Below are positions 27,720-30,811 of a stretch of DNA of 38,213 nt, piece by piece. The stretch comes from an uncultured bacterium (GTDB lineage Bacteria > Planctomycetota > Phycisphaerae > Phycisphaerales > SM1A02), in contig CAJCCX010000284.1 of assembly GCA_903961015.1 (NCBI GenBank), forward strand, positions 1 through 38,213. Direction: 5' to 3'. The notes beneath the pieces were generated by a model. It was given only the letters and a program-made list of their open reading frames with translations. It was not told the origin of the DNA and did not search any database. How positions within the stretch are numbered: position 1 is the stretch's first letter; the number at the start of each line of letters is the position of its first letter. The translations under genes and the position numbers were made by a program.

Positions 27720-28235
27720 ATGCGAATTCGCCGAACAACCCACGAGCCTCGAATCGAATTGATCCCGCTGATCGACGTGATGATGTTCTTGCTTTCGTTC
27801 TTTATTTATTCTCAGGCTCTCGCCGTGCGCATCAGCGTTGTGCCGATGGAACTGAGAAAGTTTCAAAGTGCCCAAGCAGCGAAGCCAGCTCCCGCTGCAA
27901 CAATCTCGATCACGCTTGACGGCAAGCTCTATTACAACCGAGTTCCATGCGAATTGCAGGATGTTGCTGGTCGTGTCGCAGAATCCAAATCTGAAGATGC
28001 AAAGACGGTTGTGTACATCGCCGTCGCAGATGGTCAAGGAACAATTGACCGTGCGCCAATCATGCAAAGTGTTTGGGACAAGTTGCGCGGATGCGGGCTT
28101 CAAGTCAACTTTGTTGGTCGGCCAATCGATAGTGACGAGAAAAAACCTGCGACTGCGCCAGCTGGGACTGCACCAGTACCAACTGCACCAGTGCCAACTG
28201 CACCAGTACCAACTGCACCGACGGCCACGCCGTGA
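27720..28235 (+). CDS. ExbD/TolR-type biopolymer transport protein
   Basis: The 171-residue protein has the ExbD layout: a short cytosolic N-terminus, one membrane helix with the essential Asp in PLIDVMMFLLSFFIYSQAL, and a periplasmic domain (about 60-140) with ISITLDGKLYYN and VYIAVADGQGTIDRAPIMQSVWDKLRGCGL. ExbD works with ExbB to convert the proton gradient into force on TonB. The C-terminus carries a TAPVP repeat. The stop overlaps the GTG of the TonB-like gene by 4 nt. No ExbB gene is present in the window. Confidence 0.85.
   Translation: MRIRRTTHEPRIELIPLIDVMMFLLSFFIYSQALAVRISVVPMELRKFQSAQAAKPAPAATISITLDGKLYYNRVPCELQDVAGRVAESKSEDAKTVVYIAVADGQGTIDRAPIMQSVWDKLRGCGLQVNFVGRPIDSDEKKPATAPAGTAPVPTAPVPTAPVPTAPTATP
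28167..28219 (+). repeat. 15-bp tandem repeat encoding TAPVP
   Basis: The unit ACTGCACCAGTACCA occurs three times (28167-28211; the middle copy has G for A) plus a partial fourth copy. It encodes the TAPVP repeat at the end of the ExbD-like protein. Multiples of 15 bp keep the frame, so copy number can change without breaking the coupled downstream gene. Confidence 0.85.
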
Positions 28236-29584
28236 CGGAATCGCGTCAACAGAACGCTCCACTCTATTTTGGCGCGGTCATTGCATTGATCCTGCATTTG
28301 TTGATCGCGATTCCTGTTCTCAGTGGTGCTTGGGGAGTCGGAGGCGATAGCCCCCTTCATTCTTCGCTCGACGGAAAAAGTGAGAGCGAAAAACGGCAAC
28401 GCGAACGACTTGAAGAAGCGCTAAAGAAAGCGAGGGAAACTTCCCCAGAAAATGAAAACGAAGTCGTTCCTGGATTGGAGAATGGGTCCGACCAAGGCAT
28501 GACTTGGATTGGATATGACGAATATAAAGAACAACTTGCACAACATGCGGAAGTCGAACAAGCTGCATTCACTGATAAAGACGTTGCGGGCGGTGGAGCG
28601 CTTGCTCAGGGTGAATTGAAGCAACTTCCTGCTGTCGCACCTGGACAAGAGGCGCAGGCTTCGCCGCCGCCTCCGCCACCAACTGCTCAGCCTTCGCCAC
28701 CAACTCCTCCTACTCCTGCGACTCCGCAAACAATTGCTACGCCGCAAACCCCCGAGACTCCGCAGTCGCCGACGACTCCGGCAACTCCTCAAGAGATGAA
28801 ACCTGTTGAAGCGGTTCGTGCAGTCAGTCCAACTGAAACTCCCCAACCAAGTGATATGAAGGGTGTCTCTCCAATGCCAGTGGAAACGGTGACTCTTCCA
28901 ACTGCTCCTGTTGGTCCAGATCCAAATCTGCCGCCTGCGATTGAGCGAGCAGAAATCAAGCCTGATCCTTCGAAGGATGCACCACCAACTGCGGAAGTGC
29001 AACCGATGAATACTCCAGAACCAGTTCCGCGCCCTGAAGTTCCACCAACGGAAAAGCCACAAGTTGAGATCCCAACAACTCCAAACTTGAAGCCCCCTTC
29101 TCCACAAACTCCACAATCGCCACCAACTCCGCAAACGCCGCAGAATCCAAACTCTGGTGCGAATGGTGCGACTTCACCAGTTGTTTCGCCTGTGACTGGC
29201 CCGCCTGGTGCACCTGGAAAGGGAACTGCAACTGGCGATAAATCTGATCGCGAATCTGATGCGACAAGTATTGTTGATGTTCCTCCTTCAATGTGGCGCA
29301 GTGGAAAGCCGCTTGCCCGAAAAGGGCTGGAAATCAAGACTAAAAAACCTGAACTTCCGATTCTGACCAGACTCACGACGTCTCCTGGCAATCCCGTTTG
29401 CGAAGTTCTTTTCGGCAAGGATGGTGTGCCAGTGTCGTGCAAGATTCTGCAATCGAGTGGGTTTGCAGATATTGATGGACCAGTCACAGACGCGTTGTAT
29501 CGCTGGCGTGCGAAAGGTTCGCAACTTGAAAAACTTGCTCCAGGAAAAACAGTGACCTTTCGAATTCGATTTATTCTCAACTGA
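28232..29584 (+). CDS. TonB-like energy-transducing protein
   Basis: The 450-residue product starts with GTG overlapping the ExbD stop (GTGA). It has one N-terminal membrane helix (about 12-33, FGAVIALILHLLIAIPVLSG), a coiled-coil-like charged region (about 50-75), a very long Pro/Thr/Gln-rich periplasmic spacer (about 140-325) and a C-terminal TonB-type domain (about 355-450; CEVLFGKDGVPVSCKILQSSGFADIDGPVTDALYRWRAKG). TonB proteins span the periplasm and power outer-membrane receptors. The spacer is long for the family. No receptor gene is adjacent. Confidence 0.8.
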   Translation: MTESRQQNAPLYFGAVIALILHLLIAIPVLSGAWGVGGDSPLHSSLDGKSESEKRQRERLEEALKKARETSPENENEVVPGLENGSDQGMTWIGYDEYKEQLAQHAEVEQAAFTDKDVAGGGALAQGELKQLPAVAPGQEAQASPPPPPPTAQPSPPTPPTPATPQTIATPQTPETPQSPTTPATPQEMKPVEAVRAVSPTETPQPSDMKGVSPMPVETVTLPTAPVGPDPNLPPAIERAEIKPDPSKDAPPTAEVQPMNTPEPVPRPEVPPTEKPQVEIPTTPNLKPPSPQTPQSPPTPQTPQNPNSGANGATSPVVSPVTGPPGAPGKGTATGDKSDRESDATSIVDVPPSMWRSGKPLARKGLEIKTKKPELPILTRLTTSPGNPVCEVLFGKDGVPVSCKILQSSGFADIDGPVTDALYRWRAKGSQLEKLAPGKTVTFRIRFILN

Positions 29585-29598
29585 GTCGCACGTAGCAC

Positions 29599-29855
29599 TC
29601 GCCGGGGTTCAAATCATCCCGCTGCCCACGTTGGCGAATCAAACTCTCGCTCGAACGTTTTTCAGATTCCGTCTCGTATCTGTTTGCGTGCCCAGCCGTT
29701 GGAAAGTTCTCTCGGGCGAGTTCCGCAGGCGGCCGACGGCACTTGCAATAAAATTTCGTAAACCAGATCGTGTCGGTCGCCGAGGACTGTCTGAGCCCCG
29801 AGAGGACTTTTCACGGCTGACCACTTATGTATGTCCGTGACTGTTTCCGGGGCTC
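29599..29855 (+). ncRNA. Candidate structured RNA with two competing folds
   Basis: This non-coding interval between convergent genes contains nested complementary segments. Read as plus-strand RNA, 29693-29716 pairs with 29797-29819 as a 23-bp helix (21 Watson-Crick, 2 G-U, one bulged U). It encloses a 10-bp helix, 29728-29737 with 29772-29781 (one G-U). A mutually exclusive hairpin pairs 29793-29800 with 29848-29855 and 29811-29816 with 29835-29840, both perfect. Smaller hairpins lie at 29603-29621 and 29663-29682. All three wobble pairs are G-U on the plus strand and would be A-C on the minus strand. No RNA family is recognised, and an inverted-repeat element is an alternative. Confidence 0.45.
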
Positions 29856-30811
29856 TATTTCGCCGCTGCTTGCGCGCTTCGAATCGCGCCCTCAGATAAG
29901 GCTCGCAACATGCTTCCACCCGCCCCACAATCGTCAGCAATCTTGATGAAAAGCCGCACAAGTTCATCGCGATCACCACGTGTGAAGGCACGAGTTCCCT
30001 CGCACTGTTCGATGCATGATTCGTGGATCACGCCAATGCCTGCAGCGAGCGCCCACCATCGACACCATCCCCACCATCGACTCTCCGAATCATCCCCTCG
30101 GGCTTGCAATAACATTGCATCTGCTGCAAGCCAAAGTGAACTTGGAATCTCAGCACCATCGATCGCCATAAATTGATCTTCCATTCGTGAAATTCGCGCA
30201 TGCCGCTTCGTTTCCAAAACCCATTGAGCCCTCGTCGGAACGATCAGCACAACATTGGCGCCGCCTAACACTGCTCGACCACTTGCAGCAAATGCTGCTC
30301 GAGCATCGATCGAATCCGCACGATCACCAATAGCCAAGATCACCAATGAACTTTCAGAAATCCCAAGACTTCTTCGCACATCATCCCGCTGCAACTCTGC
30401 AGTTCGTCTCCAATATTCGGTCGCAGCTTGCGCACAATTTCTTTGTGCCTGCGCCGGAGGTTCGAGATGAACAACCCGATCAACACCAGGAAGCGATGCA
30501 TGAGCAAGATCCCCAGCAGCCGCGCCATAAGCCATGATTTTTTGTGGGCAAGTTCCATGTCGTTCAACCCACGCTTGCAAACGGCGTGACAGCAATCGTT
30601 CGATGCCAAGTGGCGCGGTCAGAATGCTGTTGAATGCAATCAACAATGCTCGATTGGAATGACTGACGGCAGAAGGTCCGACTGCGATCCGCATGTCCGC
30701 GATCGAATCGCCAGTCATCGCTCCTGCAGTCCAACCGACTTCACCAGTTGTTTGCACAAGGTGCAAGATTCCCCCGCGTGGAAGATGACTCAACCTCAAA
30801 CGCCCAATCAC
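29855..30811 (-). CDS. Glycosyltransferase-like protein (GT-B fold, GT4 type)
   Basis: The 318-residue protein resembles family 4 glycosyltransferases in its second half: DDVRRSLGISESSLVILAIGD, ANVVLIVP, an IDGAEIPSSLWLAADAMLLQARGDD segment like the acceptor/nucleotide-sugar region, and GIGVIHESC. The N-terminal half has a Rossmann-like ILHLVQTTGEVGWTAGAMTG start. The usual EX7E motif is not clear, so activity is uncertain. GTG at 30811 overlaps the stop of the upstream lipoprotein gene (GTGA), so it is the last gene of a four-gene coupled operon. Confidence 0.6.
   Translation of the reverse strand: MIGRLRLSHLPRGGILHLVQTTGEVGWTAGAMTGDSIADMRIAVGPSAVSHSNRALLIAFNSILTAPLGIERLLSRRLQAWVERHGTCPQKIMAYGAAAGDLAHASLPGVDRVVHLEPPAQAQRNCAQAATEYWRRTAELQRDDVRRSLGISESSLVILAIGDRADSIDARAAFAASGRAVLGGANVVLIVPTRAQWVLETKRHARISRMEDQFMAIDGAEIPSSLWLAADAMLLQARGDDSESRWWGWCRWWALAAGIGVIHESCIEQCEGTRAFTRGDRDELVRLFIKIADDCGAGGSMLRALSEGAIRSAQAAAK

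Follow-up and report, generated by a model that had tools for sequence, protein, structure and literature searches.

The interval at positions 29599-29855 of the window (the whole 38,213-nt stretch of DNA analysed) holds one copy of an intergenic element that is both dispersed and structured. The element forms a long hairpin, with an invariant two-stranded internal loop lying between helices whose sequence is free to vary and whose complementarity is kept. The initial annotation had described a gene-free interval between convergent neighbors, and the flanking ORFs agree with this, the plus-strand one ending at 29584 and the minus-strand one at 29855. It had also proposed a long helix around a shorter one of 10 bp. 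For the plus strand of 29676-29830 the folding energy is -68.8 kcal/mol, against -48.8 ± 3.9 for shuffled sequences (z = -5.1; 0 of 200 shuffles were as low), which upholds that helix and refines its arms to 29693-29717 and 29795-29819. Conservation centers on the internal loop, GCGAGTTCCGCAG / GCGAGGACTGTYTGAGC, which separates the outer stem from the inner hairpin; both of these vary in sequence. A copy is made up of a core of ~125 to 145 nt, in some cases preceded by a 5' leader, and a 12-bp minirepeat tail. The parts of the window copy are as follows.

29597-29675, plus strand: 5' leader, which only some copies have (from aligned copies and their flanks)
29597-29628, plus strand: opening part of the leader, a truncated fragment of another, related repeat
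29629-29664, plus strand: second part of the leader, a shared module
29689-29824, plus strand: whole element according to a covariance model built from Adlercreutzia-group copies only (sole match in the window, E = 2e-5)
29693-29717, plus strand: left arm of the outer stem, pairing with 29795-29819 in the window fold; sequence free, complementarity kept (fold, and covariation in relatives)
29716-29728, plus strand: internal-loop strand 1, GCGAGTTCCGCAG, invariant or nearly so in 39 copies from the genus and in other phyla
29728-29737, plus strand: left arm of the inner 10-bp helix
29738-29771, plus strand: inner loop of the hairpin, variable (alignment A2)
29772-29781, plus strand: right arm of the inner 10-bp helix
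29780-29796, plus strand: internal-loop strand 2, CCGAGGACTGTCTGAGC, conserved
29795-29819, plus strand: right arm of the outer stem (fold and covariation), ending 35 nt short of the convergent minus-strand ORF
29823-29859, plus strand: tail of 12-bp minirepeats (CCGTGGCTGTWT-like), variable from copy to copy and the source of an unconserved second fold

No terminator-like site (a GC-rich stem followed by a T run) was found in window positions 29400-30000, and a T run is not a consistent feature of the listed flanks of copies. A search against Rfam 15 returned 0 matches at the gathering score and nothing relevant up to an E value of 10. We found no described family containing the element in open papers, where motif strings often appear only in figures or supplements and an earlier description is possible. 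We also note a second repeat upstream of many copies (for example, own-genome locus L009:1440-1510), truncated in the window at 29597-29628. On its opposite strand this repeat has the same loop logic as the main element (GGCGAGTTTGCAAGCC ... GCAGCATGTTTGAGCCC), and the leader thus looks like an inverted and diverged relative of that element.

Copies, sites, and compensatory change

A BLAST search with the 257-nt interval gives 56 matches in its own draft genome (2.88 Mb). Many of these lie at contig ends and some are in tandem; the loop strand GAGGAYTGTYTGAGC is present 47 times as an exact match. Many contigs (C63, C33, C101, C47, C73, and others) start or finish inside the repeat, so the assembly was probably broken by it and the real copy number may be higher. 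Related genomes were searched, as the initial annotation had suggested. Of the 18 other genomes in the genus, 9 match the core: G002, G008, G010, G012, and G016 have many good copies, and four more have weak or partial ones. The 42 relatives outside the genus gave one weak match. Of the findings that the annotation had named as speaking against a structured RNA, scattered copies of a mobile inverted repeat were found in part, in that copies are many and scattered, and a lack of conserved pairing clearly was not.

The window's own site carries the element in the window genome and in the five genomes with many copies, and lacks it in G001, G005, G014, G015, and G018. The simplest reading of these six occupied and five empty sites is a single gain followed by vertical inheritance; homogenization among copies inside one genome may also have played a part. 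Between the window and G008 the arms differ at this site by compensated changes. By eye, the upstream neighbor is the same in G008 and the empty sites, and the empty sites, which have diverged, contain no clear target-site duplication, a feature of a MITE of a DDE transposon. The left neighbor (window positions 28232-29584) belongs to an ExbD/TonB-like operon in the window genome and is replaced by a different conserved neighbor in G008, and the repeat may therefore mark a rearrangement breakpoint.

An alignment of 35 gapless Adlercreutzia-group copies provided the covariation check that had been proposed for the interval. Two-sided compensatory change was present in 25 of 33 base pairs, and 96.7% of cells were paired. 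None of 500 shuffles matched the observed values, a count that is not a probability because the copies are related; slid controls, which preserve relatedness, collapsed in every case. RNAalifold missed the outer arms in the genus alignment, which we attribute to a bulge lying in differing registers in the subfamilies, and the gapless Adlercreutzia alignment was used instead. The covariation strongly supports the structured, conserved non-coding element that the initial annotation had suspected.

The same pattern is seen at orthologous loci. Four Adlercreutzia-group genomes carry the element downstream of one conserved gene (by eye, dihydrouridine synthase), at 34 to 35 nt from the stop codon in three of them and at 90 nt in the fourth. 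Its arms differ by as many as 13 compensated pairs among these copies, and the inner hairpin can be wholly different; a signal recognition particle protein gene (by eye) provides a second such case. Summed over the compared pairs, which overlap and some of which may join non-equivalent copies, we counted 106 double changes, 18 single changes that kept the pair, and 26 that broke it. That single changes are rare suggests events affecting several bases at once, such as template switching from one arm to the other, with selection keeping the paired products.

Distribution across phyla and related hairpins

A pattern made of the two loop strands alone, with flanks unspecified, would be expected to match by chance ~0.06 times in the whole collection by our own estimate, and it matched at least 109 stretches, many from MAGs, in about ten phyla. 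By record labels these belong to Planctomycetota, Coriobacteriia, other actinobacteria, Latescibacterota, Omnitrophota, Eisenbacteria, Krumholzibacteriota, Gemmatimonadetes, Chloroflexi, Lachnospiraceae, and Bdellovibrio, and diverged members are missed by such pattern-based sampling. The flanks of these matches, across the roughly ten phyla, pair with a mean of -43.2 kcal/mol, compared with -20.0 when shuffled and -21.0 when partners were swapped, and a few (for example, the Lachnospiraceae copy) have a weak outer stem. The covariance model built from Adlercreutzia-group copies matched all 16 of the tested loci from other phyla that carry the main (type 1) form, most with E < 1e-3; in the window's whole genome it reached E ≤ 0.001 at only 2 places with default filters, which indicates that it detects the planctomycete branch weakly.

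The distribution is patchy. The loop strand occurs in 57 of 150 Coriobacteriia genomes (control, 0) and in 4 of 294 Planctomycetota genomes, 3 of them with single matches at control level. Genomes hold between 1 and 50 copies, and a reversed-pattern control gave 0 in 27 of 27 genomes. The type 1 pattern had 0 matches in 2.9 million viral contigs. Plasmid matches to a minimal type 1 query (Paracoccus, Delftia, and Streptomyces) contained a partial motif with a different left strand and were not counted. The Coriobacteriaceae genome RUG13125 holds 50 copies of the loop strand, and at four of its loci (L190, L195, L214, and L251) a complete loop motif is nested in the inner hairpin of another, ~45 bp apart.

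A second set of hairpins, with tip TGTTTGAGCGNAGCGAGTT, may plausibly be akin to the main element. Ilyobacter, Variovorax, Parabacteroides, and Butyrivibrio carry them on plasmids or chromids and 5 of 150 Bacillota genomes on the chromosome, and they also occur in 83 stretches of viral contigs, prophage-like ones among them (viral loci at L302-L381, with further loci at L294-L297 and L385-L414); the tip form was absent from E. coli when queried there. Proteobacterial hairpins like TTTGAGCGCAGCGAGTTT served only as a lead to this search. Common to both types are the strands TGTYTGAGC and GCGAGTT, stems that vary in sequence and are complementary (-23.7 compared with -9.0 when shuffled), and the same orientation rule for doublets (4 of 4 in the tip type). 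The stems are complementary and often long in many of the tip hairpins and not in some viral copies. The tip hairpins differ from the main element in that a short loop closes the motif on the other side, a circular permutation, and in that they are without CCGCAG / GAGGAC; model R1 had no significant match in the eight tip-form loci tested.

Genomic position and possible function

Gene contexts, taken from home-made codon-model gene calls that include draft genomes, place 33 sites between convergent genes, 37 between tandem genes, 9 between divergent genes, and 18 within called ORFs. The element thus prefers 3' gene ends, often beginning no more than a few dozen bases from a stop codon, and avoids divergent intergenic regions. 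In 72 of 98 cases, at a median distance of 66 nt, the gene lying 3' of the motif terminates at it. The motif strand is antisense to the abutting gene. Most neighbors are housekeeping genes, and in viral contigs they are phage genes; the neighbor survey identified no recurrent transposase near copies. Pairs of copies in opposite orientation within 700 bp are without exception (-,+), as seen in 6 of 6 type 1 pairs and 4 of 4 pairs of the tip type. In the Adlercreutzia alignment, departures from Watson-Crick pairing on the motif strand are G.U rather than A.C by 24 to 6, and fixed wobbles in planctomycete copies are also G.U on that strand, which lends modest support to the plus-strand polarity that the initial annotation had tentatively read from G-U pairs. 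The support falls short of decisive, since G.U and A.C balance out when the outer stems of all groups are counted.

We tentatively favor, with a confidence somewhat short of even, the reading that the element is an RNA-level border element of gene ends with a putative loop-binding factor. Its starting points are that the fold is conserved, the loop invariant, the position at gene ends, and the element retained at orthologous sites. From these we infer a transcribed element with one active strand, a partner factor, and an effect on the transcript: it would act at gene borders through a nucleic acid fold, probably of RNA, with the hairpin forming in transcripts that cross a gene end by read-through from the convergent neighbor or by antisense entry. 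The invariant loop would then be recognized by the putative factor, and the transcript ended, trimmed, or protected. The covariation, complementary flanks, changes at orthologous loci, six-to-five site occupancy, gene-end preference, (-,+) arrangement of 10 of 10 doublets, and 24-to-6 G.U excess support this border role. Counting against it, the strand evidence is mixed, with a motif strand antisense to the abutting gene; the excess of double changes could be partly mutational, through template switching, rather than selective (PMC8794818); and the patchy distribution also suits a mobile element. A broader form of the proposal, in our view less likely than not, would make the element a phylum-spanning class of 3'-border RNAs, the loop being read by a putative conserved factor that controls read-through or antisense transcription, the arms evolving in concert so as to remain complementary, and the tip-TGTTTGAGCGNAGCGAGTT hairpins forming a circularly permuted branch.

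The main rival, which we consider a real possibility, is a selfish, non-autonomous mobile palindrome like REP or REPIN sequences, in which the loop would be the site of a putative trans-acting single-stranded DNA enzyme, 3' gene ends would be safe landing places, and only copies that fold would multiply. The many copies per genome, tandem copies, inverted doublets, patchy distribution, and gain of the element at a formerly empty site all fit this, as does the preference for 3' ends, which REPs are known to share (PMC1525189). A Y1 (HUH) transposase (PF01797) was found in 0 of 19 genomes of the window's genus, however, in a search with positive controls, and the absence of a recurrent transposase beside copies and of a replication-strand bias (the leading strand carries 38 of 72 copies, p = 0.72) also argues against it. 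Moreover, long retention at orthologous sites with ongoing compensatory change is not expected of dead insertions.

Activity at the DNA level, as a cruciform or protein-binding palindrome at gene ends that relieves supercoiling or serves as a nucleoid or repair site with no need of transcription, strikes us as unlikely. It would suit convergent-gene gaps, where supercoiling accumulates, as well as the overall uncertainty about the active strand (balanced G.U/A.C). It would also suit the skewed placement of copies on two chromosomes, those of Adlercreutzia hattorii (G121) and A. caecimuris (G123), where 52 of 72 lie in the terminus half (p = 2e-4). A single strand, however, accounts better for the strand-asymmetric loop with its orientation rules and for the G.U bias seen in one well-aligned group. 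We think it still less probable that template switching at replication, a mechanism described for RNA hairpins (PMC8794818), is the main cause of the arms' lasting complementarity, by repeatedly rewriting one from the other, with the element itself doing little; this would account for the predominance of double over single changes at orthologous loci and would leave the invariant loop of 13 + 17 nt across phyla and the gene-end orientation rules unexplained.

The two-state RNA switch that the initial annotation had proposed can be set aside with near certainty: the window sequence does allow both folds (29793-29816 with 29835-29855 forms a duplex of -28.9, equaled by 0 of 500 shuffled tails), but the second is private to this copy, since the best pairing of this kind has a mean of -15.5 over 96 distinct copies from the genus, similar to shuffled sequence (-14.9), with -29 reached by the window only (the main stem averages -31.3 ± 3.5), the 95 other copies lack it, copies sit at 3' ends and not in 5' leaders, and an Rfam match is absent.

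The overall pattern suggests a shared recognizer or activity at tens of gene ends per genome that is named nowhere in the open literature we found. Carriers include cultured gut bacteria (Adlercreutzia), in which this is directly testable, and the element is a natural test bed for selection and template switching in compensatory evolution.

Comparison with known systems

The closest known systems are the REP, BIME, and REPIN repeats with their RAYT (TnpA-REP) transposases (PMC3116915, PMC6006769, PMC3733652). Like these, the element is extragenic, palindromic, and multicopy, prefers convergent gaps, and occurs as singles or inverted doublets. Its copy number and site preference are therefore REP-like, yet it fails the defining tests of a REP, lacking the Y1 transposase in the window's genus and having a core of about 125 to 145 nt rather than 20 to 60 bp and a loop sequence conserved across phyla where REP sequence is species-specific. 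The GTAG/CGTC foot is not conserved in most copies (among 70 Adlercreutzia-group copies, GTAG in 15, with ~4 expected, and CGTC in 2), and the lagging-strand preference of REPs is not shared, the copies showing no bias toward either replication strand.

Integron attC sites, which have RYYYAAC / GTTRRRY core sites at the base of their hairpin, differ in standing in cassette arrays, whereas copies of the element are dispersed beside housekeeping genes (by eye only). ERIC sequences are long imperfect palindromes, intergenic inverted repeats of >100 nt present in many copies, and are known from enterobacteria and close relatives. Compared by description only, they resemble the element as long, multicopy intergenic inverted repeats. 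The dispersed palindromes of bacteria are mostly lineage-specific in sequence; here a loop of 13 + 17 nt is common to about ten phyla, and the stems around it differ between copies, and between species at one locus, yet remain complementary.
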